Below are positions 1 through 32,697 of a DNA stretch of 64,000 nucleotides, piece after piece. The stretch is from assembly GCA_964017155.1 (NCBI GenBank), contig OZ024861.1:53954309-54018308 (forward strand), read 5' to 3'. The notes below the pieces were generated by a model that saw only the letters and a list, made by a program, of their open reading frames with translations, had not been told where the DNA came from and did not search any database. Position numbers and translations under genes: made by a program. The stretch comes from Oasisia sp. SBJ-2009 (taxonomy: Eukaryota > Annelida > Polychaeta > Sabellida > Siboglinidae). How positions within the stretch are numbered: the first letter of the stretch is position 1; each line of letters opens with the position of its first letter.

Positions 1-556
1 CTGATCCCACGTAGACGGATCGGACTTTGTCGTTTTCCTCGATTTGTTTCCAAAAGTTGGCAAGACGACGCGCACGGTCAGTTGGTTTCGTCTAGAGAGT
101 CGTAGTTACACTCCGTGCGTGGAATACGCACGAGAAGACCGACCGGCGCGTCGAACTTGGCCGTTTCTCTCGATTCTCAAAACTGATCCCCCGTAGACGG
201 ATCGGACTTTGTCGTTTTCCTCGATTTGTGCAACTATCACCGTGTTAAGGTCGCCAAATGCCTCGTCACCTCATCTAGTTAGTGTTTCATTATTACTCCC
301 GCCGTTTACCCAGCGGTCGGCACGGAATTCTGTTGAAAAGAATGTAAACAGACATTTACGCTTCCACTACTGATCCCCCGTAGACGGATCGGACTTTGTC
401 GTTTTGCTCGATTTGTGCAACTATCACCCTGTTAAGGTCGCCAAATGTCTTGACACCTCATCTAGTTAGTGGTTCATTATTACTCCCGCCGTTTACCCAG
501 CGGTCGCCACGGAATTCTGTTGAAAAGAATGTAAACAGACATTTACGCTTCCCCAA
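1..556 (+). repeat. ABB trimer, type I (first of 38 trimers)
   Basis: A 1-182, B 183-369, B 370-556. In type I trimers the first B is a special subtype: caccgtgttaag for caccctgttaag, gtgtttcatt for gtggttcatt, and an end reading ctactg (ttccacta, atctacta or cccctacta) instead of ccaactg. Trimers start at 1, 1648, 2572, 4588, 5874, 7159, 8814, 10837, 12131, 14877, 16900, 18194, 19472, 20020, 22765, 25510, 26788, 27712, 30089, 31367, 32292, 33570, 34848, 37593, 38502, 41247, 42156, 45631, 46901, 47810, 51285, 52194, 54932, 56218, 57496, 59512, 61520 and 62806. This A unit has private changes (cccacgtag and gtctagag). Confidence 0.93.
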
Positions 557-2385
557 CTGATCCCCCGTAGACGGATCGGACTTTGTCGTTTTCCTCGATT
601 TTTTTCCAAAAGTTGGCAAGACGACGCGCACGGTCAGTTGGTTTCGTCGAGAGAGTCGTAGTTACACTCCGTGCGTGGAATACGGCCGAGAAGACCGACC
701 AGCGCGTCGAACTTGGCCGTTTCTCTCGATTCTCAAAACTGATCCCCCGTAGACGGATCGGACTTTGTCGTTTTGCTCGATTTGTGCAACTATCACCCTG
801 TTAAGGTCGCCAAATGCCTTGACACCTCATCTAGTTAGTGGTTCATTATTACTCCCGCCGTTTACCCAGCGGTCGGCACGGAATTCTGTTGAAAAGAATG
901 TAAACAGACTTCCCCAACTGATCCCCCGTAGACGGATCGGACATTGTCGTTTTCCTCGATTTGTTTCCAAAAGTTGGCAAGACGACGCGCACGGTCAGTT
1001 GGTTTCGTCGAGAGAGTCGTAGTTACACCCCTTGCGTGGCACACGCCCGAGAAGTCCGACCGGCGCGTCGAACTTGGCCGTTTCTCTCGATTCTCAAAAC
1101 TGATCCCCCGTAGACGGATCGGACTTTGTCGTTTTGCTCGATTTGTGCAACTATCACCCTGTTTAGGTCGCCAAATGTCTTGACACCTCATCTAGTTAGT
1201 GGTTCATTATTACTCCCGCCGTTTACCCAGCGGTCGGCACGGAATTCTGTTGAAAAGAATGTAAACAGACACTTACGCTTCCCCAACTGATCCCCCGTAG
1301 ACGGATCGGACTTTGTCGTTTTCCACGATTTGTTTCCAAAAGTTGGCAAGACGACGCGCACGGTCAGTTGGTTTCGTCGAGAGAGTCGTAGTTACACCCC
1401 TTGCGTGGCACACGCCCGAGAAGACCGACCGGCGCGTCGAACTTGGCCGTTTCTCTCGATTCTCAAAACTGATCCCCCGTAGACGGATCGGACTTTGTCG
1501 TTTTCCTCGATTTGTGCAACTATCACCCTGTTAAGGTCGCCAAATGCCTCGTCACCTCATCTAGTTAGTGGTTCATTATTACTCCCGCCGTTTACCCAGC
1601 GGTCAGCACGGAATTCTGTTGAAAAGAATGTAAACAGACTTCCCCAACTGATCCCCCGTAGACGGATCGGACTTTGTCGTTTTCCTCGATTTGTTTCCAA
1701 AAGTTGGCAAGACGACGCGCACGGTCAGTTGGTTTCGTCGAGAGAGTCGTAGTTACACTCCATGCGTGGAATACGCCCGAGAAGACCGACCGGCGCGTCG
1801 AACTTGGCCATTTCTCTCGATTCTCAAAACTGATCCCCCGTAGACGGATCGGACTTTGTCGTTTTCCTCGATTTGTGCAACTATCACCGTGTTAAGGTCG
1901 CCAAATGCCTCGTCACCTCATCTAGTTAGTGTTTCATTATTACTCCCGCCGTTTACCCAGCGGTCGGCACGGAATTCTGTTGAAAAGAATGTAAACAGAC
2001 ATTTACGCTTCCACTACTGATCCCCCGTAGACGGATCGGACTTTGTCGTTTTGCTCGATTTGTGCAACTATCACCCTGTTAAGGTCGCCAAATGTCTTGA
2101 CACCTCATCTAGTTAGTGGTTCATTATTACTCCCGCCGTTTACCCAGCGGTCAGCACGGAATTCTGTTGAAAAGAATGTAAACAGACATTTACGCTTCCC
2201 CAACTGATCCCCCGTTAGCGGATCGGACTTTGTCGTTTTCCTCGATTTGTTTCCAAAAGTTGGCAAGACGACGCGCACGGTCAGTTGGTTTCGTCGAGAG
2301 AGTCGTAGTTACACTCCGTGCGTGGAATACGCCCGAGAAGACCGACCGGCGCGTCGAACTTGGCCATTTCTCTCGATTCTTAAAA

Positions 2386-2571
2386 CTGATCCCCCGTAGA
2401 CGGATCGGACTTTGTCGTTTTGCTCGATTTGTGCAACTATCACCCTGTTAAGGTCGCCAAATGCCTTGACACCTCATCTAGTTAGTGGTTCATTATTACT
2501 CCCGCCGCTTACCAGCGGTCGCCACGGAATTATGTTGAAAAGAATGTAAACATACATTTACGCTTCCCCAA
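2386..2571 (+). repeat. 186-bp B variant with a 1-base deletion (cgcttaccagcgg)
   Basis: The 28S-antisense part reads cgcttaccagcgg: a t-to-c change plus loss of one c relative to cgtttacccagcgg. Seven copies carry it, starting at 2386, 6973, 10651, 16714, 21119, 23864 and 27526. Three copies, with the change near 56150, 59085 and 62745, have cgcttacccagcgg with the c still present, the likely intermediate. At most of these sites the next A has gacgttgtcg and caatacgacg, so the variant spread as part of a larger block. Confidence 0.9.
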
Positions 2572-5500
2572 CTGATCCCCCGTAGACGGATCGGACGTTG
2601 TCGTTTTCCTCGATTTGTTTCCAAAAGTTGGCAATACGACGCGCAAGGTCAGTTGGTTTCGTCGAGAGAGTCGTAGTTACACTCCGTGCGTGGAATACGC
2701 CCGAGAAGACCGACCGGCGCGTCGAACTTGGCCATTTCTCTCGATTCTTAAAACTGATCCCCCGTAGACGGATCGGACTTTGTCGTTTTCCTCGATTTGT
2801 GCAACTATCACCGTGTTAAGGTCGCCAAATGCCTCGTCACCTCATCTAGTTAGTGTTTCATTATTACTCCCGCCGTTTACCCAGCGGTCGGCACGGAATT
2901 CTGTTGAAAAGAATGTAAACAGACATTTACGCATCTACTACTGATCCCCCGTAGACGGATCGGACTTTGTCGTTTTGCTCGATTTGTGCAACTATCACCC
3001 TGTTAAGGTCGCCAAATGTCTTGACACCTCATCTAGTTAGTGGTTCATTATTACTCCCGCCGTTTACCCAGCGGTCGCCACGGAATTATGTTGAAAAGAA
3101 TGTAAACAGACATTTACGCTTCCCCAACTGATCCCCCGTAGACGGATCGGACTTTGTCGTTTTCCTCGATTTGTTTCCAAAAGTTGGCAAGACGACGCGC
3201 ACGGTCAGTTGGTTTCGTCGAGAGAGTCGTAGTTACACTCCGTGCGTGGAATACGGCCGAGAAGACCGACCAGCGCGTCGAACTTGGCCGTTTCTCTCGA
3301 TTCTCAAAACTGATCCCCCGTAGACGGATCGGACTTTGTCGTTTTGCTCGATTTGTGCAACAATCACCCTGTTAAGGTCGCCAAATGCCTTGACACCTCA
3401 TCTAGTTAGTGGTTCATTATTACTCCCGCCGTTTACCCAGCGGTCGGCACGGAATTCTGTTGAAAAGAATGTAAACAGACTTCCCCAACTGATCCCCCGT
3501 AGACGGATCGGACTTTGTCGTTTTCCTCGATTTGTTTCCAAAAGTTGGCAAGACGACGCGCACGGTCAGTTGGTTTCGTCGAGAGAGTCGTAGTTACACC
3601 CCTTGCGTGGCACACGCCCGAGAAGACCGACCGGCGCGTCGAACTTGGCCGTTTCTCTCGATTCTCAAAACTGATCCCCCGTAGACGGATCGGACTTTGT
3701 CGTTTTGCTCGATTTGTGCAACTATCACCCTGTTAAGGTCGCCAAATGTCTTGACACCTCATCTAGTTAGTGGTTCATTATTACTCCCGCCGTTTACCCA
3801 GCGGTCGGCACGGAATTCTGTTGAAAAGAATGTAAACAGACATTTACGCTTCCCCAACTGATCCCCCGTAGACGGATCGGACTTTGTCGTTTTCCACGAT
3901 TTGTTTCCAAAAGTTGGCAAGACGGCGCGCACGGTCAGTTGGTTTCGTCGAGAGAGTCGTAGTTACACTCCGTGCGTGGAATACGCCCGAGAAGACCGAC
4001 CGGCGCGTCGAACTTGGCCGTTTCTCTCGATTCTCAAAACTGATCCCCCGTAGACGGATCGGACTTTGTCGTTTTCCTCGATTTGTGCAACTATCACCCT
4101 GTTAAGGTCGACAAATGCCTCGTCACCTCATCTAGTTAGTGGTTCATTATTACTCCCGCCGTTTACCCAGCGGTCAGCACGGAATTCTGTTGAAAAGAAT
4201 GTAAACAGACATTTACGCTTCCCCAACTGATCCCCCGTTACCGGATCGGACTTTGTCGTTTTCCTCGATTTGTTTCCAAAAGTTGGCAAGACGACGCGCA
4301 CGGTCAGTTGGTTTCGTCGAGAGAGTCGTAGTTACACTCCGTGCGTGGAATACGCCCGAGAAGACCGACCGGCGCGTCGAACTTGGCCGTTTCTCTCGAT
4401 TCTCAAAACTGATCCCCCGTAGACGGATCGGACTTTGTCGTTTTCCTCGATTTGTGCAACTATCACCCTGTTAAGGTCGCCAAATGCCTCGTCACCTCAT
4501 CTAGTTAGTGGTTCATTATTACTCCCGCCGTTTACCCAGCGGTCTGCACGGAATTCTGTTGAAAAGAATGTAAACAGACTTCCCCAACTGATCCCCCGTA
4601 GACGGATCGGACTTTGTCGTTTTCCTCGATTTGTTTCCAAAAGTTGGCAAGACGACGCGCACGGTCAGTTGGTTTCGTCGAGAGAGTCGTAGTTACACTC
4701 CGTGCGTGGAATACGCCCGAGAAGACTGACCGGCGCGTCGAACTTGGCCATTTCTCTCGATTCTCAAAACTGATCCCCCGTAGACGGATCGGACTTTGTC
4801 GTTTTCCTCGATTTGTGCAACTATCACCGTGTTAAGGTCGCCAAATGCCTCGTCACCTCATCTAGTTAGTGTTTCATTATTACTCCCGCCGTTTACCCAG
4901 CGGTCGGCACGGAATTCTGTTGAAAAGAATGTAAACAGACATTTACGCCTCCACTACTGATCCCCCGTAGACGGATCGGACTTTGTCGTTTTGCTCGATT
5001 TGTGCAACTATCACCCTGTTAAGGTCGCCAAATGTCTTGACACCTCATCTAGTTAGTGGTTCATTATTACTCCCGCCGTTTACCCAGCGGTCGCCACGGA
5101 ATTCTGTTGAAAAGAATGTAAACAGACATTTACGCTTCCCCAACTGATCCCCCGTAGACGGATCGGACATTGTCGTTTTCCTCGATTTGTTTCCAAAAGT
5201 TGGCAAGACGACGCGCACGGTCAGTTGGTTTCGTCGAGAGAGTCGTAGTTACACCCCTTGCGTGGCACACGCCCGAGAAGACCGACCGGCGCGTCGAACT
5301 TGGCCGTTTCTCTCGATTCTCAAAACTGATCCCCCGTAGACGGATCGGACTTTGTCGTTTTGCTCGATTTGTGCAACTATCACCCTGTTAAGGTCGCCAA
5401 ATGCCTCGTCACCTCATCTAGTTAGTGGTTCATTATTACTCCCGCCGTTTACCCAGCGGTCAGCACGGAATTCTGTTGAAAAGAATGTAAACAGACATTC

Positions 5501-6429
5501 ACGCTTCCCCAACTGATCCCCCGTAGACGGATCGGACTTTGTCGTTTTCCTCGATTTGTTTCCAAAAGTTGGCAAGACGACGCGCACGGTCAGTTGGTTT
5601 CGTCGAGAGAGTCGTAGTTACACCCCTTGCGTGGCACACGCCCGAGAAGACCGACCGGCGCGTCGAACTTGGCCGTTTCTCTCGATTCTCAAAACTGATC
5701 CCCCGTAGACGGATCGGACTTTGTCGTTTTCCTCGATTTGTGCAACTATCACCCTGTTAAGGTCGCCAAATGCCTCGTCACCTCATCTAGTTAGTGGTTC
5801 ATTATTACTCCCGCCGTTTACCCAGCGGTCTGCACGGAATTCTGTTGAAAAGAATGTAAACAGACTTCCCCAACTGATCCCCCGTAGACGGATCGGACTT
5901 TGTCGTTTTCCTCGATTTGTTTCCAAAAGTTGGCAAGACGACGCGCACGGTCAGTTGGTTTCGTCGAGAGAGTCGTAGTTACACTCCATGCGTGGAATAC
6001 GCCCGAGAAGACCGACCGGCGCGTCGAACTTGGCCATTTCTCTCGATTCTCAAAACTGATCCCCCGTAGACGGATCGGACTTTGTCGTTTTCCTCGATTT
6101 GTGCAACTATCACCGTGTTAAGGTCGCCAAATGCCTCGTCACCTCATCTAGTTAGTGTTTCATTATTACTCCCGCCGTTTACCCAGCGGTCGGCACGGAA
6201 TTCTGTTGAAAAGAATGTAAACAGACATTTACGCTTCCACTACTGATCCCCCGTAGACGGATCGGACTTTGTCGTTTTGCTCGATTTGTGCAACTATCAC
6301 CCTGTTAAGGTCGCCAAATGTCTTGACACCTCATCTAGTTAGTGGTTCATTATTACTCCCGCCGTTTACCCAGCGGTCGCCACGGAATTCTGTTGAAAAG
6401 AATGTAAACAGACATTTACGCTTCCCCAA

Positions 6430-6476
6430 CTGATCCCCCGTAGACGGATCGGACTTTGTCGTTTTCCTCGATTTGT
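6430..6476 (+). repeat. 47-bp box shared by A and B monomers (representative copy)
   Basis: This box opens every A and every B unit, about 350 times in the window, from ctgatcccccgtag to cctcgatttgt. It is the only stretch where A and B are nearly identical; past offset 47 they differ at once. Variation inside it is limited: gtagacgg, gttagcgg or gttaccgg at offsets 11-18; gactttg, gacattg or gacgttg at offsets 23-29; and cctcg, gctcg or ccacg at offsets 37-41. Its conservation could reflect frequent exchange between A and B or a protein-binding role. I see no match to the CENP-B box. Confidence 0.9.
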
Positions 6477-6491
6477 TTCCAAAAGTTGGCA

Positions 6492-6538
6492 AGACGACGC
6501 GCACGGTCAGTTGGTTTCGTCGAGAGAGTCGTAGTTAC
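6492..6538 (-). pseudogene. Decayed 28S-like fragment in A, antisense, spanning the R2 site region
   Basis: Offsets 95-109 of A, gagagtcgtagttac, match the reverse complement of 28S gtaactatgactctc at 14 of 15. Extending upstream over offsets 76-109 gives about 26 of 34 with one gap, and offsets 63-72 (agacgacgcg) resemble the reverse complement of the ctcgtcatct part. The R2 junction itself is degraded in A. Alone, the 15-base match would be marginal. It becomes persuasive because it hits the same short 28S region that B hits, in the opposite orientation to B's sense fragment. The A sequence after offset 110 may continue antisense 28S, but too loosely to claim. Confidence 0.6.
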
Positions 6539-9500
6539 ACTCCGTGCGTGGAATACGCCCGAGAAGACCGACCGGCGCGTCGAACTTGGCCGTTTCTCTC
6601 GATTCTCAAAACTGATCCCCCGTAGACGGATCGGACTTTGTCGTTTTCCTCGATTTGTGCAACTATCACCCTGTTAAGGTCGCCAAATGCCTCGTCACCT
6701 CATCTAGTTAGTGGTTCATTATTACTCCCGCCGTTTACCCAGCGGTCGGCACGGAATTATGTTGAAAAGAATGTAAACAGACTTCCCCAACTGATCCCCC
6801 GTAGACGGATCGGACTTTGTCGTTTTCCTCGATTTGTTTCCAAAAGTTGGCAAGACGACGCGCACGGTCAGTTGGTTTCGTCGAGAGAGTCGTAGTTACA
6901 CTCCGTGCGTGGAATACGCCCGAGAAGACCGACCGGCGCGTCGAACTTGGCCATTTCTCTCGATTCTTAAAACTGATCCCCCGTAGACGGATCGGACTTT
7001 GTCGTTTTGCTCGATTTGTGCAACTATCACCCTGTTAAGGTCGCCAAATGCCTTGACACCTCATCTAGTTAGTGGTTCATTATTACTCCCGCCGCTTACC
7101 AGCGGTCGCCACGGAATTATGTTGAAAAGAATGTAAACATACATTTACGCTTCCCCAACTGATCCCCCGTAGACGGATCGGACGTTGTCGTTTTCCTCGA
7201 TTTGTTTCCAAAAGTTGGCAATACGACGCGCAAGGTCAGTTGGTTTCGTCGAGAGAGTCGTAGTTACACTCCGTGCGTGGAATACGCCCGAGAAGACCGA
7301 CCGGCGCGTCGAACTTGGCCATTTCTCTCGATTCTTAAAACTGATCCCCCGTAGACGGATCGGACTTTGTCGTTTTCCTCGATTTGTGCAACTATCACCG
7401 TGTTAAGGTCGCCAAATGTCTTGACACCTCATCTAGTTAGTGGTTCATTATTACTCCCGCCGTTTACCCAGCGGTCGGCACGGAATTCTGTTGAAAAGAA
7501 TGTAAACAGACATTTACGCATCTACTACTGATCCCCCGTAGACGGATCGGACTTTGTCGTTTTGCTCGATTTGTGCAACTATCACCCTGTTAAGGTCGCC
7601 AAATGTCTTGACACCTCATCTAGTTAGTGGTTCATTATTACTCCCGCCGTTTACCCAGCGGTCGCCACGGAATTATGTTGAAAAGAATGTAAACAGACAT
7701 TTACGCTTCCCCAACTGATCCCCCGTAGACGGATCGGACTTTGTCGTTTTCCTCGATTTGTTTCCAAAAGTTGGCAAGACGACGCGCACGGTCAGTTGGT
7801 TTCGTCGAGAGAGTCGTAGTTACACTCCGTGCGTGGAATACGGCCGAGAAGACCGACCAGCGCGTCGAACTTGGCCGTTTCTCTCGATTCTCAAAACTGA
7901 TCCCCCGTAGACGGATCGGACTTTGTCGTTTTGCTCGATTTGTGCAACAATCACCCTGTTAAGGTCGCCAAATGCCTTGACACCTCATCTAGTTAGTGGT
8001 TCATTATTACTCCCGCCGTTTACCCAGCGGTCGCCACGGAATTATGTTGAAAAGAATGTAAACAGACATTTACGCTTCCCCAACTGATCCCCCGTAGACG
8101 GATCGGACTTTGTCGTTTTCCTCGATTTGTTTCCAAAAGTTGGCAAGCCGACGCGCACGGTCAGTTGGTTTCGTCGAGAGAGTCGTAGTTACACTCCGTG
8201 CGTGGAATACGGCCGAGAAGACCGACCAGCGCGTCGAACTTGGCCGTTTCTCTCGATTCTCAAAACTGATCCCCCGTAGACGGATCGGACTTTGTCGTTT
8301 TGCTCGATTTGTGCAACAATCACCCTGTTAAGGTCGCCAAATGCCTTGACACCTCATCTAGTTAGTGGTTCATTATTACTCCCGCCGTTTACCCAGCGGT
8401 CGGCACGGAATTCTGTTGAAAAGAATGTAAACATACTTCCCCAACTGATCCCCCGTAGACGGATCGGACTTTGTCGTTTTCCTCGATTTGTTTCCAAAAG
8501 TTGGCAAGACGACGCGCACGGTCAGTTGGTTTCGTCGAGAGAGTCGTAGTTACACCCCTTGCGTGGCACACGCCCGAGAAGACCGACCGGCGCGTCGAAC
8601 TTGGCCGTTTCTCTCGATTCTCAAAACTGATCCCCCGTAGACGGATCGGACTTAGTCGTTTTGCTCGATTTGTGCAACTATCACCCTGTTAAGGTCGCCA
8701 AATGTCTTGACACCTCATCTAGTTAGTGGTTCATTATTACTCCCGCCGTTTACCCAGCGGTCGGCACGGAATTCTGTTGAAAAGAATGTAAACAGACATT
8801 TACGCTTCCCCAACTGATCCCCCGTAGACGGATCGGACTTTGTCGTTTTCCACGATTTGTTTCCAAAAGTTGGCAAGACGGCGCGCACGGTCAGTTGGTT
8901 TCGTCGAGAGAGTCGTAGTTACACTCCGTGCGTGGAATACGCCCGAGAAGACCGACCGGCGCGTCGAACTTGGCCGTTTCTCTCGATTCTCAAAACTGAT
9001 CCCCCGTAGACGGATCGGACTTTGTCGTTTTCCTCGATTTGTGCAACTATCACCGTGTTAAGGTCGCCACATGCCTCGTCACCTCATCTAGTTAGTGTTT
9101 CATTATTACTCCCGCCGTTTACCCAGCGGTCGGCACGGAATTCTGTTGAAAAGAATGTAAACAGACATTTACGCTTCCACTACTGATCCCCCGTAGACGG
9201 ATCGGACTTTGTCGTTTTGCTCGATTTGTGCAACTATCACCCTGTTAAGGTCGCCAAATGTCTTGACACCTCATCTAGTTAGTGGTTCATTATTACTCCC
9301 GCCGTTTACCCAGCGGTCGCCACGGAATTCTGTTGAAAAGAATGTAAACAGACATTTACGCTTCCCCAACTGATCCCCCGTAGACGGATCGGACTTTGTC
9401 GTTTTCCTCGATTTGTTTCCAAAAGTTGGCAAGACGACGCGCACGGTCAGTTGGTTTCGTCGAGAGAGTCGTAGTTACACTCCGTGCGTGGAATACGCCC

Positions 9501-10336
9501 GAGAAGACCGACCGGCGCGTCGAACTTGGCCGTTTCTCTTGATTCTCAAAACTGATCCCCCGTAGACGGATCGGACTTTGTCGTTTTCCTCGATTTGTGC
9601 AACTATCACCCTGTTAAGGTCGCCAAATGCCTCGTCACCTCATCTAGTTAGTGGTTTATTATTACTCCCGCCGTTTACCCAGCGGTCAGCACGGAATTCT
9701 GTTGAAAAGAATGTAAACAGACATTTACGCTTCCCCAACTGATCCCCCGTAGACGGATCGAACTTTGTCGTTTTCCTCGATTTGTTTCCAAAAGTTGGCA
9801 AGACGACGCGCACGGTCAGTTGGTTTCGTCGAGAGAGTCGTAGTTACACTCCGTGCGTGGAATACGCCCGAGAAGACCGACCGGCGCGTCGAACTTGGCC
9901 GTTTCTCTCGATTCTCAAAACTGATCCCCCGTAGACGGATCGGACTTTGTCGTTTTCCTCGATTTGTGCAACTATCACCCTGTTAAGGTCGCCAAATGCC
10001 TTAACACCTCATCTAGTTAGTGGTTCATTATTACTCCCGCCGTTTACCCAGCGGTCAGCACGGAATTCTGTTGAAAAGAATGTAAACAGACATTTACGTT
10101 TCCCCAACTGATCCCCCGTTAGCGGATCGGACTTTGTCGTTTTCCTCGATTTGTTTCCAAAGGTTGGCAAGACGACGCGCACGGTCAGTTGGTTTCGTCG
10201 AGAGAGTCGTAGTTACACTCCGTGCGTGGAATACGCCCGAGAAGACCGACCGGCGCGTCGAACTTGGCCGTTTCTCTCGATTCTCAAAACTGATCCCCCG
10301 TAGACGGATCGGACTTTGTCGTTTTCCTCGATTTGT

Positions 10337-10391
10337 GCAACTATCACCCTGTTAAGGTCGCCAAATGCCTCGTCACCTCATCTAGTTAGTG
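10337..10391 (+). pseudogene. 28S rRNA-derived fragment in B, sense, containing the R2 target site
   Basis: Offsets 48-102 of monomer B align with the conserved 28S rRNA segment where R2 retrotransposons insert. From memory, the rRNA core is ttaaggtagccaaatgcc and B has ttaaggtcgccaaatgcc; the match continues through tcgtca, giving 23 of 24 bases. Upstream, gcaactatcaccctg matches gtaactatgactctc at about 11 of 15. Downstream, after 5 extra bases, tctagttagtg matches tctaattagtg at 10 of 11. The R2 cleavage point falls between offsets 68 and 69. The same segment is present in every B copy with small changes. It is a derived fragment, not a functional rRNA gene. A search against LSU rRNA would settle the exact limits. 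Confidence 0.88.
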
Positions 10392-10392
10392 G

Positions 10393-10418
10393 TTCATTAT
10401 TACTCCCGCCGTTTACCC
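10393..10418 (-). pseudogene. 28S rRNA-derived fragment in B, antisense, from just upstream of the R2 site
   Basis: Offsets 104-129 of B are the reverse complement of the 28S segment immediately 5' of the R2 target. The 19 bases ttactcccgccgtttaccc are identical to the reverse complement of the conserved rRNA gggtaaacggcgggagtaa, and the preceding tcatta extends the match to about 23 of 25. It sits only 1 base after the sense fragment and overlaps it in rRNA coordinates (both contain the gtaactatga part), so B is a fold-back of 28S. Similarity beyond offset 130 is too weak to call. Variants cgcttaccc, cgttaaccc and actaccgcc occur in some blocks; cgtttaccc is the rRNA-like, presumably ancestral state. 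Confidence 0.85.
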
Positions 10419-10450
10419 AGCGGTCGGCACGGAATTCTGTTGAAAAGAAT

Positions 10451-10468
10451 GTAAACAGACTTCCCCAA
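10451..10468 (+). other. 8-bp indel site distinguishing short from long B
   Basis: In long B (see 40503-40525) the text gtaaacagacatttacgc contains a 5-bp inverted repeat, gtaaa and tttac, around a 6-base loop. In the short B shown here the 8 bases atttacgc are absent, which removes the right arm. Whether the small hairpin matters is unknown. The deletion seems to have happened once and then spread, since every short B has exactly the same end points. Confidence 0.7.
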
Positions 10469-12130
10469 CTGATCCCCCGTAGACGGATCGGACTTTGTCG
10501 TTTTCCTCGATTTGTTTCCAAAAGTTGGCAAGACGACGCGCACGGTCAGTTGGTTTCGTCGAGAGAGTCGTAGTTACACTCCGTGCGTGGAATACGCCCG
10601 AGAAGACCGACCGGCGCGTCGAACTTGGCCATTTCTCTCGATTCTTAAAACTGATCCCCCGTAGACGGATCGGACTTTGTCGTTTTGCTCGATTTGTGCA
10701 ACTATCACCCTGTTAAGGTCGCCAAATGCCTTGACACCTCATCTAGTTAGTGGTTCATTATTACTCCCGCCGCTTACCAGCGGTCGCCACGGAATTATGT
10801 TGAAAAGAATGTAAACATACATTTACGCTTCCCCAACTGATCCCCCGTAGACGGATCGGACGTTGTCGTTTTCCTCGATTTGTTTCCAAAAGTTGGCAAT
10901 ACGACGCGCAAGGTCAGTTGGTTTCGTCGAGAGAGTCGTAGTTACACTCCGTGCGTGGAATACGCCCGAGAAGACCGACCGGCGCGTCGAACTTGGCCAT
11001 TTCTCTCGATTCTTAAAACTGATCCCCCGTAGACGGATCGGACTTTGTCGTTTTCCTCGATTTGTGCAACTATCACCGTGTTAAGGTCGCCAAATGCCTC
11101 GTCACCTCATCTAGTTAGTGTTTCATTATTACTCCCGCCGTTTACCCAGCGGTCGGCACGGAATTCTGTTGAAAAGAATGTAAACAGACATTTACGCATC
11201 TACTACTGATCCCCCGTAGACGGATCGGACTTTGTCGTTTTGCTCGATTTGTGCAACTATCACCCTATTAAGGTCGCCAAATGTCTTGACACCTCATCTA
11301 GTTAGTGGTTCATTATTACTCCCGCCGTTTACCCAGCGGTCGCCACGGAATTATGTTGAAAAGAATGTAAACAGACATTTACGCTTCCCCAACTGATCCC
11401 CCGTAGACGGATCGGACTTTGTCGTTTTCCTCGATTTGTTTCCAAAAGTTGGCAAGACGACGCGCACGGTCAGTTGGTTTCGTCGAGAGAGTCGTAGTTA
11501 CACTCCGTGCGTGGAATACGGCCGAGAAGACCGACCAGCGCGTCGAACTTGGCCGTTTCTCTCGATTCTCAAAACTGATCCCCCGTAGACGGATCGGACT
11601 TTGTCGTTTTGCTCGATTTGTGCAACTATCACCCTGTTAAGGTCGCCAAATGTCTTGACACCTCATCTAGTTAGTGGTTCATTATTACTCCCGCCGTTTA
11701 CCCAGCGGTCGGCACGGAATTCTGTTGAAAAGAATGTAAACAGACATTTACGCTTCCCCAACTGATCCCCCGTAGACGGATCGGACTTTGTCGTTTTCCA
11801 CGATTTGTTTCCAAAAGTTGGCAAGACGGCGCGCACGGTCAGTTGGTTTCGTCGAGAGAGTCGTAGTTACACTCCGTGCGTGGAATACGCCCGAGAAGAC
11901 CGACCGGCGCGTCGAACTTGGCCGTTTCTCTCGATTCTCAAAACTGATCCCCCGTAGACGGATCGGACTTTGTCGTTTTCCTCGATTTGTGCAACTATCA
12001 CCCTGTTAAGGTCGACAAATGCCTCGTCACCTCATCTAGTTAGTGGTTCATTATTACTCCCGCCGTTTACCCAGCGGTCAGCACGGAATTCTGTTGAAAA
12101 GAATGTAAACAGACATTTACGCTTCCCCAA

Positions 12131-12678
12131 CTGATCCCCCGTTACCGGATCGGACTTTGTCGTTTTCCTCGATTTGTTTCCAAAAGTTGGCAAGACGACG
12201 CGCACGGTCAGTTGGTTTCGTCGAGAGAGTCGTAGTTACACTCCGTGCGTGGCACACGCCCGAGAAGACCGACCGGCGCGTCGAACTTGGCCGTTTCTCT
12301 CGATTCTCAAAACTGATCCCCCGTAGACGGATCGGACTTTGTCGTTTTCCTCGATTTGTGCAACTATCACCCTGTTAAGGTCGCCAAATGCCTCGTCACC
12401 TCATCTAGTTAGTGGTTCATTATTACTCCCGCCGTTTACCCAGCGGTCTGCACGGAATTCTGTTGAAAAGAATGTAAACAGACTTCCCCAACTGATCCCC
12501 CGTAGACGGATCGGACTTTGTCGTTTTGCTCGATTTGTGCAACTATCACCCTGTTAAGGTCGCCAAATGTCTTGACACCTCATCTAGTTAGTGGTTCATT
12601 ATTACTCCCGCCGTTTACCCAGCGGTCGCCACGGAATTCTGTTGAAAAGAATGTAAACAGACATTTACGCTTCCCCAA
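12131..12678 (+). repeat. ABB trimer, type II (short B then long B, 548 bp)
   Basis: A 12131-12312, short B 12313-12491, long B 12492-12678. Unlike type I, the first B is an ordinary short B (tgcac variant) without the gtgtt and ctactg marks. The BB junction therefore arose separately from type I. The same structure occurs at 18194 (the duplicate of this one, 6063 bp away) and at 19472. Confidence 0.9.
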
Positions 12679-13590
12679 CTGATCCTTCGTAGACGGATCG
12701 GACTTTGTCGTTTTCCTCGATTTGTTTCCAAAAGTTGGCAAGACGACGCGCACGGTCAGTTGGTTTCGTCGAGAGAGTCGTAGTTACACTCCGTGCGTGG
12801 AATACGCCCGAGAAGACCGACCGGCGCGTCGAACTTGGCCGTTTCTCTCGATTCTCAAAACTGATCCCCCGTAGACGGATCGGACTTTGTCGTTTTCCTC
12901 GATTTGTGCAACTATCACCCTGTTAAGGTCGACAAATGCCTCGTCACCTCATCTAGTTAGTGGTTCATTATTACTCCCGCCGTTTACCCAGCGGTCAGCA
13001 CGGAATTCTGTTGAAAAGAATGTAAACAGACATTTACGCTTCCCCAACTGATCCCCCGTTACCGGATCGGACTTTGTCGTTTTCCTCGATTTGTTTCCAA
13101 AAGTTGGCAAGACGACGCGCACGGTCAGTTGGTTTCGTCGAGAGAGTCGTAGTTACACTCCGTGCGTGGAATACGCCCGAGAAGACCGACCGGCGCGTCG
13201 AACTTGGCCGTTTCTCTCGATTCTCAAAACTGATCCCCCGTAGACGGATCGGACTTTGTCGTTTTCCTCGATTTGTGCAACTATCACCCTGTTAAGGTCT
13301 CCAAATGCCTCGTCACCTCATCTAGTTAGTGGTTCATTATTACTCCCGCCGTTTACCCAGCTGTCGGCACGGAATTCTGTTGAAAAGAATGTAAACAGAC
13401 TTCCCCAACTGATCCCCCGTAGACGGATCGGACTTTGTCGTTTTCCTCGATTTGTTTCCAAAAGTTGGCAAGACGACGCGCACGGTCAGTTGGTTTCGTC
13501 GAGAGAGTCGTAGTTACACCCCTTGCGTGGCACACGCCCGAGAAGACCGACCGGCGCGTCGAACTTGGCCGTTTCTCTCGATTCTCAAAA

Positions 13591-16500
13591 CTGATCCCCC
13601 GTAGACGGATCGGACTTTGTCGTTTTGCTCGATTTGTGCAACTATCACCCTGTTAAGGTCGCCAAATGTCTTGACACCTCATCTAGTTAGTGGTTCATTA
13701 TTACTCCCGCCGTTTACCCAGCGGTCGCCACGGAATTATGTTGAAAAGAATGTAAACAGACATTTACGCTTCCCCAACTGATCCCCCGTAGACGGATCGG
13801 ACTTTGTCGTTTTCCTCGATTTGTTTCCAAAAGTTGGCAAGACGACGCGCACGGTCAGTTGGTTTCGTCGAGAGAGTCGTAGTTACACTCCGTGCGTGGA
13901 ATACGGCCGAGAAGACCGACCAGCGCGTCGAACTTGGCCGTTTCTCTCGATTCTCAAAACTGATCCCCCGTAGACGGATCGGACTTTGTCGTTTTGCTCG
14001 ATTTGTGCAACAATCACCCTGTTAAGGTCGCCAAATGCCTTGACACCTCATCTAGTTAGTGGTTCATTATTACTCCCGCCGTTTACCCAGCGGTCGCCAC
14101 GGAATTATGTTGAAAAGAATGTAAACAGACATTTACGCTTCCCCAACTGATCCCCCGTAGACGGATCGGACTTTGTCGTTTTCCTCGATTTGTTTCCAAA
14201 AGTTGGCAAGCCGACGCGCACGGTCAGTTGGTTTCGTCGAGAGAGTCGTAGTTACACTCCGTGCGTGGAATACGGCCGAGAAGACCGACCAGCGCGTCGA
14301 ACTTGGCCGTTTCTCTCGATTCTCAAAACTGATCCCCCGTAGACGGATCGGACTTTGTCGTTTTGCTCGATTTGTGCAACAATCACCCTGTTAAGGTCGC
14401 CAAATGCCTTGACACCTCATCTAGTTAGTGGTTCATTATTACTCCCGCCGTTTACCCAGCGGTCGGCACGGAATTCTGTTGAAAAGAATGTAAACAGACT
14501 TCCCCAACTGATCCCCCGTAGACGGATCGGACTTTGTCGTTTTCCTCGATTTGTTTCCAAAAGTTGGCAAGACGACGCGCACGGTCAGTTGGTTTCGTCG
14601 AGAGAGTCGTAGTTACACCCCTTGCGTGGCACACGCCCGAGAAGACCGACCGGCGCGTCGAACTTGGCCGTTTCTCTCGATTCTCAAAACTGATCCCCCG
14701 TAGACGGATCGGACTTAGTCGTTTTGCTCGATTTGTGCAACTATCACCCTGTTAAGGTCGCCAAATGTCTTGACACCTCATCTAGTTAGTGGTTCATTAT
14801 TACTCCCGCCGTTTACCCAGCGGTCGGCACGGAATTCTGTTGAAAAGAATGTAAACAGACATTTACGCTTCCCCAACTGATCCCCCGTAGACGGATCGGA
14901 CTTTGTCGTTTTCCACGATTTGTTTCCAAAAGTTGGCAAGACGGCGCGCACGGTCAGTTGGTTTCGTCGAGAGAGTCGTAGTTACACTCCGTGCGTGGAA
15001 TACGCCCGAGAAGACCGACCGGCGCGTCGAACTTGGCCGTTTCTCTCGATTCTCAAAACTGATCCCCCGTAGACGGATCGGACTTTGTCGTTTTCCTCGA
15101 TTTGTGCAACTATCACCGTGTTAAGGTCGCCACATGCCTCGTCACCTCATCTAGTTAGTGTTTCATTATTACTCCCGCCGTTTACCCAGCGGTCGGCACG
15201 GAATTCTGTTGAAAAGAATGTAAACAGACATTTACGCTTCCACTACTGATCCCCCGTAGACGGATCGGACTTTGTCGTTTTGCTCGATTTGTGCAACTAT
15301 CACCCTGTTAAGGTCGCCAAATGTCTTGACACCTCATCTAGTTAGTGGTTCATTATTACTCCCGCCGTTTACCCAGCGGTCGCCACGGAATTCTGTTGAA
15401 AAGAATGTAAACAGACATTTACGCTTCCCCAACTGATCCCCCGTAGACGGATCGGACTTTGTCGTTTTCCTCGATTTGTTTCCAAAAGTTGGCAAGACGA
15501 CGCGCACGGTCAGTTGGTTTCGTCGAGAGAGTCGTAGTTACACTCCGTGCGTGGAATACGCCCGAGAAGACCGACCGGCGCGTCGAACTTGGCCGTTTCT
15601 CTTGATTCTCAAAACTGATCCCCCGTAGACGGATCGGACTTTGTCGTTTTCCTCGATTTGTGCAACTATCACCCTGTTAAGGTCGCCAAATGCCTCGTCA
15701 CCTCATCTAGTTAGTGGTTTATTATTACTCCCGCCGTTTACCCAGCGGTCAGCACGGAATTCTGTTGAAAAGAATGTAAACAGACATTTACGCTTCCCCA
15801 ACTGATCCCCCGTAGACGGATCGAACTTTGTCGTTTTCCTCGATTTGTTTCCAAAAGTTGGCAAGACGACGCGCACGGTCAGTTGGTTTCGTCGAGAGAG
15901 TCGTAGTTACACTCCGTGCGTGGAATACGCCCGAGAAGACCGACCGGCGCGTCGAACTTGGCCGTTTCTCTCGATTCTCAAAACTGATCCCCCGTAGACG
16001 GATCGGACTTTGTCGTTTTCCTCGATTTGTGCAACTATCACCCTGTTAAGGTCGCCAAATGCCTTAACACCTCATCTAGTTAGTGGTTCATTATTACTCC
16101 CGCCGTTTACCCAGCGGTCAGCACGGAATTCTGTTGAAAAGAATGTAAACAGACATTTACGTTTCCCCAACTGATCCCCCGTTAGCGGATCGGACTTTGT
16201 CGTTTTCCTCGATTTGTTTCCAAAGGTTGGCAAGACGACGCGCACGGTCAGTTGGTTTCGTCGAGAGAGTCGTAGTTACACTCCGTGCGTGGAATACGCC
16301 CGAGAAGACCGACCGGCGCGTCGAACTTGGCCGTTTCTCTCGATTCTCAAAACTGATCCCCCGTAGACGGACCGGACTTTGTCGTTTTCCTCGATTTGTG
16401 CAACTATCACCCTGTTAAGGTCGCCAAATGCCTCGTCACCTCATCTAGTTAGTGGTTCATTATTACTCCCGCCGTTTACCCAGCGGTCGGCACGGAATTC

Positions 16501-19500
16501 TGTTGAAAAGAATGTAAACAGACTTCCCCAACTGATCCCCCGTAGACGGATCGGACTTTGTCGTTTTCCTCGATTTGTTTCCAAAAGTTGGCAAGACGAC
16601 GCGCACGGTCAGTTGGTTTCGTCGAGAGAGTCGTAGTTACACTCCGTGCGTGGAATACGCCCGAGAAGACCGACCGGCGCGTCGAACTTGGCCATTTCTC
16701 TCGATTCTTAAAACTGATCCCCCGTAGACGGATCGGACTTTGTCGTTTTGCTCGATTTGTGCAACTATCACCCTGTTAAGGTCGCCAAATGCCTTGACAC
16801 CTCATCTAGTTAGTGGTTCATTATTACTCCCGCCGCTTACCAGCGGTCGCCACGGAATTATGTTGAAAAGAATGTAAACATACATTTACGCTTCCCCAAC
16901 TGATCCCCCGTAGACGGATCGGACGTTGTCGTTTTCCTCGATTTGTTTCCAAAAGTTGGCAATACGACGCGCAAGGTCAGTTGGTTTCGTCGAGAGAGTC
17001 GTAGTTACACTCCGTGCGTGGAATACGCCCGAGAAGACCGACCGGCGCGTCGAACTTGGCCATTTCTCTCGATTCTTAAAACTGATCCCCCGTAGACGGA
17101 TCGGACTTTGTCGTTTTCCTCGATTTGTGCAACTATCACCGTGTTAAGGTCGCCAAATGCCTCGTCACCTCATCTAGTTAGTGTTTCATTATTACTCCCG
17201 CCGTTTACCCAGCGGTCGGCACGGAATTCTGTTGAAAAGAATGTAAACAGACATTTACGCATCTACTACTGATCCCCCGTAGACGGATCGGACTTTGTCG
17301 TTTTGCTCGATTTGTGCAACTATCACCCTATTAAGGTCGCCAAATGTCTTGACACCTCATCTAGTTAGTGGTTCATTATTACTCCCGCCGTTTACCCAGC
17401 GGTCGCCACGGAATTATGTTGAAAAGAATGTAAACAGACATTTACGCTTCCCCAACTGATCCCCCGTAGACGGATCGGACTTTGTCGTTTTCCTCGATTT
17501 GTTTCCAAAAGTTGGCAAGACGACGCGCACGGTCAGTTGGTTTCGTCGAGAGAGTCGTAGTTACACTCCGTGCGTGGAATACGGCCGAGAAGACCGACCA
17601 GCGCGTCGAACTTGGCCGTTTCTCTCGATTCTCAAAACTGATCCCCCGTAGACGGATCGGACTTTGTCGTTTTGCTCGATTTGTGCAACTATCACCCTGT
17701 TAAGGTCGCCAAATGTCTTGACACCTCATCTAGTTAGTGGTTCATTATTACTCCCGCCGTTTACCCAGCGGTCGGCACGGAATTCTGTTGAAAAGAATGT
17801 AAACAGACATTTACGCTTCCCCAACTGATCCCCCGTAGACGGATCGGACTTTGTCGTTTTCCACGATTTGTTTCCAAAAGTTGGCAAGACGGCGCGCACG
17901 GTCAGTTGGTTTCGTCGAGAGAGTCGTAGTTACACTCCGTGCGTGGAATACGCCCGAGAAGACCGACCGGCGCGTCGAACTTGGCCGTTTCTCTCGATTC
18001 TCAAAACTGATCCCCCGTAGACGGATCGGACTTTGTCGTTTTCCTCGATTTGTGCAACTATCACCCTGTTAAGGTCGACAAATGCCTCGTCACCTCATCT
18101 AGTTAGTGGTTCATTATTACTCCCGCCGTTTACCCAGCGGTCAGCACGGAATTCTGTTGAAAAGAATGTAAACAGACATTTACGCTTCCCCAACTGATCC
18201 CCCGTTACCGGATCGGACTTTGTCGTTTTCCTCGATTTGTTTCCAAAAGTTGGCAAGACGACGCGCACGGTCAGTTGGTTTCGTCGAGAGAGTCGTAGTT
18301 ACACTCCGTGCGTGGCACACGCCCGAGAAGACCGACCGGCGCGTCGAACTTGGCCGTTTCTCTCGATTCTCAAAACTGATCCCCCGTAGACGGATCGGAC
18401 TTTGTCGTTTTCCTCGATTTGTGCAACTATCACCCTGTTAAGGTCGCCAAATGCCTCGTCACCTCATCTAGTTAGTGGTTCATTATTACTCCCGCCGTTT
18501 ACCCAGCGGTCTGCACGGAATTCTGTTGAAAAGAATGTAAACAGACTTCCCCAACTGATCCCCCGTAGACGGATCGGACTTTGTCGTTTTGCTCGATTTG
18601 TGCAACTATCACCCTGTTAAGGTCGCCAAATGTCTTGACACCTCATCTAGTTAGTGGTTCATTATTACTCCCGCCGTTTACCCAGCGGTCGCCACGGAAT
18701 TCTGTTGAAAAGAATGTAAACAGACATTTACGCTTCCCCAACTGATCCTTCGTAGACGGATCGGACTTTGTCGTTTTCCTCGATTTGTTTCCAAAAGTTG
18801 GCAAGACGACGCGCACGGTCAGTTGGTTTCGTCGAGAGAGTCGTAGTTACACTCCGTGCGTGGAATACGCCCGAGAAGACCGACCGGCGCGTCGAACTTG
18901 GCCGTTTCTCTCGATTCTCAAAACTGATCCCCCGTAGACGGATCGGACTTTGTCGTTTTCCTCGATTTGTGCAACTATCACCCTGTTAAGGTCGACAAAT
19001 GCCTCGTCACCTCATCTAGTTAGTGGTTCATTATTACTCCCGCCGTTTACCCAGCGGTCAGCACGGAATTCTGTTGAAAAGAATGTAAACAGACATTTAC
19101 GCTTCCCCAACTGATCCCCCGTTACCGGATCGGACTTTGTCGTTTTCCTCGATTTGTTTCCAAAAGTTGGCAAGACGACGCGCACGGTCAGTTGGTTTCG
19201 TCGAGAGAGTCGTAGTTACACTCCGTGCGTGGAATACGCCCGAGAAGACCGACCGGCGCGTCGAACTTGGCCGTTTCTCTCGATTCTCAAAACTGATCCC
19301 CCGTAGACGGATCGGACTTTGTCGTTTTCCTCGATTTGTGCAACTATCACCCTGTTAAGGTCTCCAAATGCCTCGTCACCTCATCTAGTTAGTGGTTCAT
19401 TATTACTCCCGCCGTTTACCCAGCTGTCGGCACGGAATTCTGTTGAAAAGAATGTAAACAGACTTCCCCAACTGATCCCCCGTAGACGGATCGGACTTTG

Positions 19501-19653
19501 TCGTTTTCCTCGATTTGTTTCCAAAAGTTGGCAAGACGACGCGCACGGTCAGTTGGTTTCGTCGAGAGAGTCGTAGTTACACCCCTTGCGTGGCACACGC
19601 CCGAGAAGACCGACCGGCGCGTCGAACTTGGCCGTTTCTCTCGATTCTCAAAA
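13591..19653 (+). repeat. 6063-bp higher-order block, copy 2
   Basis: Same unit order as 7528-13590, shifted by exactly 6063 bp. I found two differences: 8434 t versus 14497 g, and 10309 t versus 16372 c. Identity extends from about 7526 to 13626 in copy 1 and ends at 19690 in copy 2, where cctcg replaces gctcg. The 38-bp overlap at the junction lies inside the shared 47-bp box, marking where the unequal exchange took place. Confidence 0.93.
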
Positions 19654-20201
19654 CTGATCCCCCGTAGACGGATCGGACTTTGTCGTTTTCCTCGATTTGT
19701 GCAACTATCACCCTGTTAAGGTCGCCAAATGCCTCGTCACCTCATCTAGTTAGTGGTTCATTATTACTCCCGCCGTTTACCCAGCGGTCTGCACGGAATT
19801 CTGTTGAAAAGAATGTAAACAGACTTCCCCAACTGATCCCCCGTAGACGGATCGGACTTTGTCGTTTTGCTCGATTTGTGCAACTATCACCCTGTTAAGG
19901 TCGCCAAATGTCTTGACACCTCATCTAGTTAGTGGTTCATTATTACTCCCGCCGTTTACCCAGCGGTCGCCACGGAATTCTGTTGAAAAGAATGTAAACA
20001 GACATTTACGCTTCCCCAACTGATCCCCCGTAGACGGATCGGACTTTGTCGTTTTCCACGATTTGTTTCCAAAAGTTGGCAAGACGGCGCGCACGGTCAG
20101 TTGGTTTCGTCGAGAGAGTCGTAGTTACACTCCGTGCGTGGAATACGCCCGAGAAGACCGACCGGCGCGTCGAACTTGGCCATTTCTCTCGATTCTCAAA
20201 A
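19654..20201 (+). repeat. Linker between the 6063-bp and 2745-bp duplications
   Basis: Short B 19654-19832, long B 19833-20019 and A 20020-20201. This A is a mosaic: its front has the ccacg and gacggcgcgc marks and its end has the catttctc mark. All other ccacg copies have cgtttctc, so this A is probably a recombination product. Confidence 0.8.
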
Positions 20202-22946
20202 CTGATCCCCCGTAGACGGATCGGACTTTGTCGTTTTCCTCGATTTGTGCAACTATCACCGTGTTAAGGTCGCCAAATGCCTCGTCACCTCATCTAGTTA
20301 GTGTTTCATTATTACTCCCGCCGTTTACCCAGCGGTCGGCACGGAATTCTGTTGAAAAGAATGTAAACAGACATTTACGCTTCCACTACTGATCCCCCGT
20401 AGACGGATCGGACTTTGTCGTTTTCCTCGATTTGTGCAACTATCACCGTGTTAAGGTCGCCAAATGCCTTAACACCTCATCTAGTTAGTGGTTCATTATT
20501 ACTCCCGCCGTTTACCCAGCGGTCAGCACGGAATTCTGTTGAAAAGAATGTAAACAGACATTTACGCTTCCCCAACTGATCCCCCGTTAGCGGATCGGAC
20601 TTTGTCGTTTTCCTCGATTTGTTTCCAAAAGTTGGCAAGACGACGCGCACGGTCAGTTGGTTTCGTCGAGAGAGTCGTAGTTACACTCCGTGCGTGGAAT
20701 ACGCCCGAGAAGACCGACCGGCGCGTCGAACTTGGCCGTTTCTCTCGATTCTCAAAACTGATCCCCCGTAGACGGATCGGACTTTGTCGTTTTCCTCGAT
20801 TTGTGCAACTATCACCCTGTTAAGGTCGCCAAATGCCTCGTCACCTCATCTAGTTAGTGGTTCACTATTACTCCCGCCGTTTACCCAGCGGTCGGCACGG
20901 AATTCTGTTGAAAAGAATGTAAACAGACTTCCCCAACTGATCCCCCGTAGACGGATCGGACTTTGTCGTTTTCCTCGATTTGTTTCCAAAAGTTGGCAAG
21001 ACGACGCGCACGGTCAGTTGGTTTCGTAGAGAGAGTCGTAGTTACACTCCGTGCGTGGAATACGCCCGAGAAGACCGACCGGCGCGTCGAACTTGGCCAT
21101 TTCTCTCGATTCTTAAAACTGATCCCCCGTAGACGGATCGGACTTTGTCGTTTTGCTCGATTTGTGCAACTATCACCCTGTTAAGGTCGCCAAATGCCTT
21201 GACACCTCATCTAGTTAGTGGTTCATTATTACTCCCGCCGCTTACCAGCGGTCGCCACGGAATTATGTTGAAAAGAATGTAAACATACATTTACGCTTCC
21301 CCAACTGATCCCCCGTAGACGGATCGGACTTTGTCGTTTTCCTCGATTTGTTTCCAAAAGTTGGCAAGACGACGCGCACGGTCAGTTGGTTTCGTCGAGA
21401 GAGTCGTAGTTACACTCCGTGCGTGGAATACGGCCGAGAAGACCGACCAGCGCGTCGAACTTGGCCGTTTCTCTCGATTCTCAAAACTGATCCCCCGTAG
21501 ACGGATCGGACTTTGTCGTTTTGCTCGATTTGTGCAACTATCACCCTGTTAAGGTCGCCAAATGTCTTGACACCTCATCTAGTTAGTGGTTCATTATTAC
21601 TCCCGCCGTTTACCCAGCGGTCGGCACGGAATTCTGTTGAAAAGAATGTAAACAGACATTTACGCTTCCCCAACTGATCCCCCGTAGACGGATCGGACTT
21701 TGTCGTTTTCCACGATTTGTTTCCAAAAGTTGGCAAGACGGCGCGCACGGTCAGTTGGTTTCGTCGAGAGAGTCGTAGTTACACTCCGTGCGTGGAATAC
21801 GCCCGAGAAGACCGACCGGCGCGTCGAACTTGGCCGTTTCTCTCGATTCTCAAAACTGATCCCCCGTAGACGGATCGGACTTTGTCGTTTTCCTCGATTT
21901 GTGCAACTATCACCCTGTTAAGGTCGACAAATGCCTCGTCACCTCATCTAGTTAGTGGTTCATTATTACTCCCGCCGTTTACCCAGCGGTCAGCACGGAA
22001 TTCTGTTGAAAAGAATGTAAACAGACATTTACGCTTCCCCAACTGATCCCCCGTTACCGGATCGGACTTTGTCGTTTTCCTCGATTTGTTTCCAAAAGTT
22101 GGCAAGACGACGCGCACGGTCAGTTGGTTTCGTCGAGAGAGTCGTAGTTACACTCCGTGCGTGGAATACGCCCGAGAAGACCGACCGGCGCGTCGAACTT
22201 GGCCGTTTCTCTCGATTCTCAAAACTGATCCCCCGTAGACGGATCGGACTTTGTCGTTGTCCTCGATTTGTGCAACTATCACCCTGTTAAGGTCTCCAAA
22301 TGCCTCGTCACCTCATCTAGTTAGTGGTTCATTATTACTCCCGCCGTTTACCCAGCTGTCGGCACGGAATTCTGTTGAAAAGAATGTAAACAGACTTCCC
22401 CAACTGATCCCCCGTAGACGGATCGGACTTTGTCGTTTTCCTCGATTTGTTTCCAAAAGTTGGCAAGACGACGCGCACGGTCAGTTGGTTTCGTCGAGAG
22501 AGTCGTAGTTACACCCCTTGCGTGGCACACGCCCGAGAAGACCGACCGGCGCGTCGAACTTGGCCGTTTCTCTCGATTCTCAAAACTGATCCCCCGTAGA
22601 CGGATCGGACTTTGTCGTTTTCCTCGATTTGTGCAACTATCACCCTGTTAAGGTCGCCAAATGCCTCGTCACCTCATCTAGTTAGTGGTTCATTATTACT
22701 CCCGCCGTTTACCCAGCGGTCTGCACGGAATTCTGTTGAAAAGAATGTAAACAGACTTCCCCAACTGATCCCCCGTAGACGGATCGGACTTTGTCGTTTT
22801 CCTCGATTTGTTTCCAAAAGTTGGCAAGACGACGCGCACGGTCAGTTGGTTTCGTCGAGAGAGTCGTAGTTACACTCCGTGCGTGGAATACGCCCGAGAA
22901 GACCGACCGGCGCGTCGAACTTGGCCATTTCTCTCGATTCTCAAAA
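20202..22946 (+). repeat. 2745-bp higher-order block, copy 1
   Basis: Order: B20202 B20389 s20576 d20937 l21305 l21674 s22043 s22404 A22765. Marks unique to this pair are gtcgttgtcc (near 22255) and gtagagagag (near 21027). The second B at 20389 is a mosaic: it starts like a type I first B (gtgttaag) and continues with the gccttaacacc and agcac variants. Confidence 0.92.
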
Positions 22947-28600: not shown

Positions 28601-29216
28601 TGAAAAGAATGTAAACAGACTTCCCCAACTGATCCCCCGTAGACGGATCGGACTTTGTCGTTTTCCTCGATTTGTTTCCAAAAGTTGGCAAGACGACGCG
28701 CACGGTCAGTTGGTTTCGTCGAGAGAGTCGTAGTTACACCCCTTGCGTGGCACACGCCCGAGAAGACCGACCGGCGCGTCGAACTTGGCCGTTTCTCTCG
28801 ATTCTCAAAACTGATCCCCCGTAGACGGATCGGACTTTGTCGTTTTGCTCGATTTGTGCAACTATCACCCTGTTAAGGTCGCCAAATGTCTTGACACCTC
28901 ATCTAGTTAGTGGTTCATTATTACTCCCGCCGTTTACCCAGCGGTCGGCACGGAATTCTGTTGAAAAGAATGTAAACAGACATTTACGCTTCCCCAACTG
29001 ATCCCCCGTAGACGGATCGGACTTTGTCGTTTTCCACGATTTGTTTCCAAAAGTTGGCAAGACGGCGCGCACGGTCAGTTGGTTTCGTCGAGAGAGTCGT
29101 AGTTACACTCCGTGCGTGGAATACGCCCGAGAAGACCGACCGGCGCGTCGAACTTGGCCGTTTCTCTCGATTCTCAAAACTGATCCCCCGTAGACGGATC
29201 GGACTTTGTCGTTTTC
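25692..29216 (+). repeat. Segment resembling 2204-4408 at 25.1-kb distance
   Basis: Order: B25692 B25879 s26066 s26427 t26788 d27344 t27712 s28268 l28629 A28998 and the start of its B. From 27344 on, the order d t s l l s equals that at 2204, offset 25140 bp, with the same rare marks (caatacgacg with gcaagg, and caacaatcaccc). Differences such as cccagaag at 27841 and attattcccg near 28562 show it is older than the adjacent tandem pairs. Private mark: ccgtggacgg near 25888. Confidence 0.8.
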
Positions 29217-32532: not shown

Positions 32533-32697
32533 GTGTTAAGGTCGCCAAATGCCTCGTCACCTCATCTAGTTAGTGTTTCATTATTACTCCCGCCGTTTAC
32601 CCAGCGGTCGGCACGGAATTCTGTTGAAAAGAATGTAAACAGACATTTACGCTTCCACTACTGATCCCCCGTAGACGGATCGGACTTTGTCGTTTTG

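Follow-up and report, generated by a model that had tools for sequence, protein, structure and literature searches.

Our results strongly support the view that the satellite near the end of contig C8 was seeded from the part of the 28S rRNA gene that surrounds the R2 retrotransposon target site, because this abundant repeat carries copies of the R2 insertion segment in both orientations. The window, by which we mean the whole 64,000-nucleotide stretch that was analysed (C8:53954309-54018308), ends 200 bp short of the end of C8 (54,018,508 bp), and Tandem Repeats Finder places all of its A and B monomers head-to-tail in one orientation across the array. The features that the argument needs are given here, with signed positions counted from the R2 nick.

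178..63769, plus strand: A/B satellite array, with A of ~182 bp and B of ~187 or 179 bp (Tandem Repeats Finder, anchor spacing and A/B typing).
10201..10216, minus strand: A monomer, decayed inverted R2 region, GTAACTACGACTCTCT on the minus strand (15/16 identical; 4/2000 shuffles).
10290..10336, plus strand: linker common to A and B, CTGATCCCCCGTAGACGGATCGGACTTTGTCGTTTTCCTCGATTTG (pi 0.013 versus 0.094 in the tail; its 28S score is matched by 27/400 shuffles).
10337..10391, plus strand: B monomer, forward copy of the 28S R2 target, about -19 to +28 (41/48 columns, 0/2000 shuffles; 0/400 against 3.1 kb of 28S).
10352..10375, plus strand: the 24-base core TTAAGGTCGCCAAATGCCTCGTCA in B (read directly from the sequence; 23/24 identical to 28S).
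10394..10422, minus strand: the same B monomer, inverted upstream 28S flank, about -39 to -12, reverse complement CGC.GGGTAAACGGCGGGAGTAAnnATGA (26/29 columns, 0/2000; 0/400).

The reference target was the 84-nt 28S R2 region as printed in PMC12180492, with which the A and B consensus sequences were compared. The forward alignment of B covers 48 columns with 41 identities and runs across the nick with a score of 59, a value reached by none of 2000 dinucleotide shuffles, the best of which scored 25. The inverted piece of B (-39 to -12, 26/29 identical) was likewise reached by 0/2000 shuffles, and the forward and inverted pieces overlap at -19 to -12 of the 84-nt target. The preliminary description had claimed that the core is identical to 28S at 23 of 24 bases, that such a match is not expected by chance, that a comparison of the B consensus with LSU rRNA would give a significant alignment and that shuffled monomers would not score as well, and all of this was borne out. 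It had also described weaker similarity on both sides; that similarity is present, but there is more to it, namely the inverted flank within B and an inverted copy in A. The host's own 28S, which is available from +1 (L223; the downstream side of the nick only), can be aligned with B from +3 to +29 if a five-base insertion is allowed (2/3000 shuffles do as well), as had also been anticipated. With the nick position taken from the host R2 junctions, the predicted R2 nick in the B core falls after base 10357, between TTAAGG and TCGCC. B was said to keep about 12 of the 15 bases of the I-PpoI site, and we count 12/15 in the core against what we take to be the 15-base recognition site of that enzyme. 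The window holds 194 B cores within two edits of the 18-mer TTAAGGTCGCCAAATGCC, 99 of them exact, and 72 have the exact 23/24 form TTAAGGTCGCCAAATGCCTCGTCA. The roughly 193 relics of the target that had been announced are present in number, but they are unequally decayed fragments and none is intact, the unchanged 28S 24-mer having 0 copies among the 194.

The evidence from the A monomer depends on which array is considered. The window A consensus has an inverted 16-base match (15/16), reached by 4/2000 shuffles, and in the forward direction nothing against the 84-nt target (329/2000 shuffles as good). A divergent A from the start of C13 (L182) gives an inverted alignment over 55 columns that 0/3000 shuffles reach, and a C11 variant of A (L156) one over 50 columns (1/3000). 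In BLAST comparisons with three small 28S contigs, B matches with E values of 1.4e-6 forward and 2e-5 inverted, and the window A weakly, with an E value of 0.31. The possibility that A and B are inverted copies of each other was rejected, as direct alignment of their nonlinker parts is equalled by 505/1000 shuffles, and by 79/1000 when the C13 A is used; since these parts do not align beyond shuffles, the copy in A rests on its own match to 28S. The nonlinker part of A folds better than its shuffles (z -2.78), with GC-rich arms flanking the inverted R2-like piece. A stable hairpin formed by the forward and inverted pieces of B is ruled out, at z +1.39 relative to shuffles.

The likeness to 28S is confined to the R2 region of the 28S tested. 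When seven monomer segments were compared with one 3.1 kb partial 28S contig (L075, a contaminant), three of them beat their shuffles (B forward, B inverted and the C13-type A inverted; 0/400 each), and all three map to a single stretch of ~70 bp, from -39 to +28, at the R2 site. Against the same contig the linker, both tails and the head of A gave no score beyond shuffles, and a derivation of the linker from 28S ~350 bp upstream was dropped because 27/400 shuffles did as well. The stretch of B that is homologous to 28S is only ~50 bp, and the Rfam LSU_rRNA_eukarya model gives 0 matches in the window and no LSU match up to an E value of 10 in 801 bases. The B core is also conserved in archaeal 23S. 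The core matches at least 110 loci; among the 110 listed, the three that score best against B (59, 59 and 52) read as eukaryote-type 28S and the others score at most 47; an archaeal source of the core was rejected, since the eukaryote-type flanks fit B best. In several of the archaeal 23S genes, eight loci and others, unrelated sequence ending in TTGC or ATGC lies directly before TTAAGGTAGCC, as if introns sat a few bases from the R2/I-PpoI site.

The repeat is abundant throughout the host genome (764.1 Mb in 33 contigs, 14 of them of 42-71 Mb). The 18-mer TTAAGGTCGCCAAATGCC has 13,789 exact copies (6829 in forward and 6960 in reverse orientation), and a control with the backwards pattern gave 0. 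Because 99 of the 194 B cores in the window are exact for this 18-mer, the genome may, by extrapolation, contain ~27,000 copies of B, with the satellite amounting to ~9 Mb. The unchanged 28S 24-mer was found in 221 copies (3 + 218), and all 30 of the 30 places inspected are satellite B; GCCAAATGCCTCGTCACCTCATCTAG with the prefix TAAGG was found in 9,252 (4202 + 5050). The bases after the nick are TCGCC rather than TAGCC in most copies. Pattern searches of viral_contigs gave 0 and 0 matches. The mitochondrial contig C33 has the order cox1, cox2, later cox3; nad4L, nad4; nad1, nad3, nad2, with genes named by eye, which we take to look annelid.

The satellite lies near some, but not all, contig ends and also within subtelomeric regions, as judged from a survey of ends and from internal sites. 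It occupies both ends of C8, the left one reversed, and it is found at the starts of C10 (forward) and C13 (reverse), on C1 from 366 kb (forward) and at 716-888 kb (reverse), and at C3 58.17 Mb and C8 53.0 Mb. On C11 it was present in 17/17 samples between 475 kb and 1.0 Mb and in 0/3 samples at 300-370 kb. Left contig ends, surveyed over 0.6-10 kb each, contain satellite in 3/14 cases, lack it in 9/14 and consist of N in 2/14; among three right ends it is on C8 and absent from C1 and C2. The telomere-type repeats of this host are TTAGGG, and at the left end of C8 they are joined directly to an A monomer. This junction (C8:1-1300, L160) lies inside the R2-like part of A, ...CCCTAACCCTAACTCTCTCGACG, and looks like a healed chromosome end. 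The C11 arrays are built from a ~1.1 kb higher-order repeat in which A and a GC-rich block accompany three types of B; in some copies (L155, L156) the block starts with a TATATA-containing stretch, TTCGATTATATACACAAGTGATCTCTACC..., which is perhaps a remnant of an rDNA spacer promoter. A second subtelomeric satellite, AT-richer and with internal inverted repeats (AGCGCGTCTTGGCAAACTTTTGAGGTCGAAAAGACAGCGC..., seen at four loci), is found at the ends of C1, C2 and C11 and at C8 53.4-53.7 Mb, and on C1 it meets the A/B satellite inside the R2-like block.

The host carries R2 at the 28S nick. A 53-base 28S pattern (+4 to +56, at most 3 mismatches) has matches at five places in the genome, and in all five other sequence, poly-T or not, runs up to the first base of the 28S TAGCC (+1), with an uncertainty of one shared T. 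A copy on C9 (L223) has its 3′ junction at nick +1 and an open C-terminus with CCHC and PD...D motifs, recognized by eye. This C-terminus matches R2Bm (8gh6, E 1.1e-12) and vertebrate R2 (9nl3, E 1.7e-10, and also 9dou), and in Pfam it has a sub-threshold zf-RVT match only (E 0.094). At least 129 genome matches to it were obtained, with 150 of 195 candidates scored, several of them in frames of more than 1000 codons. The longer query, host 28S from +1 to +122 (122 bases), gave nine matches at seven places, at five of which only 36-76 bp of 28S lie in one piece; the 28S piece on C8 is located 552 bp after an R2 protein match. Neither the 53-base nor the 122-base query found uninterrupted 28S across or downstream of the R2 site assembled anywhere in the genome, since the places are five R2 junctions and two more short pieces, and the assembly seems to lack the rDNA arrays. 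The short 28S pieces of 36-76 bp at or next to nick +1 (L225, L226, L227, C8:43033856 and C3:6323951), some of them followed by rearranged 28S, seem to be R2 copies that carried 28S tails out of the rDNA. R2-like protein matches also form tandem blocks at C13:138-173 kb, C3:9.886-9.927 Mb and C11:49.78-49.88 Mb, where the period is ~8.93 kb on C13, each unit there containing two R2 types, and 1.49 kb on C3; the +1 to +122 query had no match in these three blocks.

Our preferred explanation, to which we would give about an even chance, is that a 28S site cut by R2 gave rise to a fold-back fragment, whose capture and amplification produced the satellite. The seed would have been a short fragment of host 28S centred on the R2 target, its likeliest source being faulty repair of a break made there by the R2 endonuclease. 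Fold-back copying would have produced the forward piece from -19 to +28 followed by the inverted upstream flank, and a further inverted copy would have become part of A. After joining an unrelated linker, the fragment would have multiplied through unequal exchange and gene conversion, forming arrays of which several lie near chromosome ends. The observations behind this explanation are the homology to 28S, which in the 28S tested is confined to the R2 region, its two orientations, the abundance and a host R2 at the site; what the explanation would add to them is the break, the fold-back copying and the way in which the repeat was amplified. Fold-back copying at a broken 28S site agrees with where the homology lies, with its two orientations and with the stretch from -19 to -12 that both pieces share, and R2 is the natural suspect, though not proven, because it cuts at that site. 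Arrays that keep more 28S, such as those with the 221 unchanged 24-mers and the 55 columns of the C13 A, support the seed origin. Against the preferred view, the A monomer of the window resembles 28S only weakly (4/2000 shuffles; E 0.31), the nonlinker parts of A and B do not align with each other beyond shuffles, no R2 end or target-primed reverse transcription scar was seen beside the satellite in the sequence inspected, and no uninterrupted 28S that could represent the source was found assembled. Against a trigger by R2, a fold-back could also form at this site without it. The proposal that the satellite was seeded from 28S rDNA or by an R2-related insertion event is strongly supported in its first part; an R2-related event is a plausible cause, and no insertion into the satellite was found in our limited tests.

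A tentative alternative, possible if somewhat doubtful in our view, is that the rDNA intergenic spacer had already trapped a copy of the 28S R2 site and that a piece of this spacer was then amplified into the satellite. There is a precedent in Drosophila ananassae, where, according to PMC2718515, the R1 target of 28S recurs in the rDNA spacer as a copy of 22 bp and R1 inserts there. The ~1.1 kb repeat on C11, with its added GC-rich block and TATATA-containing start, looks like spacer sequence, but this resemblance was judged by eye, and none of the nine host 28S matches (+1 to +122, seven places) lies within the satellite arrays. No assembled rDNA unit, whose spacer could have been compared with the satellite, was found.

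It is unlikely that the R2-site blocks are kept by selection because the R2 protein binds or cuts them, so that they serve as a landing pad or decoy. The presence of both orientations, the tens of thousands of copies reached by extrapolation and the R2 of the host would suit such a role, as would the low diversity of the two R2 blocks of B relative to the tail. Among 152 B monomers of the window, pi is 0.013 in the linker, 0.047 in the forward block, 0.016 in the inverted block and 0.094 in the tail; among 37 monomers from the window and C11 the values are 0.047, 0.059, 0.099 and 0.138. No special constraint on the R2 target is evident, because the linker, not an R2 block, varies least, though the R2 blocks vary less than the tail. 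TCGCC in place of TAGCC after the nick in most copies also speaks against such selection, as does the failure to find insertions. In the window, an interruption at the nick was seen in 0 of the 151 B copies that have the tested form. An exact poly-T/satellite junction pattern for one R2 family gave 0 matches genome-wide, and a junction pattern for a second family occurs at one place only, of the 28S type. Rare or different junctions could be missed because these patterns are exact and cover two families. The tandem R2 block with the 8.93 kb period near the left end of C13 was considered as a candidate for R2 sitting in satellite and rejected, since the 121 bases that surround the putative 3′ end of one copy (L229) contain, as judged by eye, neither satellite nor 28S. 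The present arrays look like a passive satellite and not a working R2 target.

The satellite acting as a sponge for R2 is quite improbable: its partial binding sites would compete with 28S for R2 and be kept because they lessen damage to the rDNA. There would be tens of thousands of such sites, in both orientations and many near chromosome ends, and the copy number, the orientations and the host R2 are all that speaks for it. Less credible still is the idea that the array consists of degenerate, non-autonomous elements of the R2 type that spread through target-primed reverse transcription. R2 copies that carry short 28S tails are indeed scattered elsewhere in the genome, but in the satellite the target reads straight through the nick and 28S sequence lies to either side of it, the arrays are head-to-tail, and 0 of the 129 listed matches to the R2 C-terminus lie in the window. 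Chance or convergence to rRNA-like sequence, which the shortness of the 24-base core alone and the weak window A match alone (4/2000) might suggest, is effectively excluded for B, as three segments at 0/2000, 0/2000 and 0/3000 shuffles all map to one spot and the backwards-pattern control is 0 in 764 Mb.

How a satellite was born can seldom be traced. In this case the seed can be narrowed down to ~70 bp, present in both orientations, at the place where a known site-specific endonuclease cuts, and the genome still carries an R2 element. The arrays offer a testable case for the idea that breaks made by transposons can found satellites, and a natural series of graded R2 target variants that could be used in binding and cutting assays. 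In the titles and abstract openings of the open-access literature searched, there was no report of a 28S R2-target satellite, and the passages of PMC13188248 on animal R2 contain no mention of annelid, satellite or telomere terms.

Among known systems, the spacer copy of the R1 site in D. ananassae is similar in that a short 28S stretch around an R-element target lies outside the gene in a repetitive setting; it differs in that the stretch here is of ~70 bp, concerns the R2 site, occurs in both orientations and in large arrays, and has no insertion found in our limited tests. With rDNA-derived satellites, a literature that from its titles and abstract openings is mostly 5S or B-chromosome work and reviews, our repeat shares a segment derived from an rRNA gene within the monomer and a tandem organization, and by these features it belongs among them. 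With the R2 retrotransposons themselves (R2Bm 8gh6; vertebrate R2 9nl3 and 9dou) it shares the 28S position, and R2 is present in the same genome. Unlike an R2 element, however, the satellite lacks any listed R2 protein match within the window and does not sit in the site as an insertion, but resembles the empty target.
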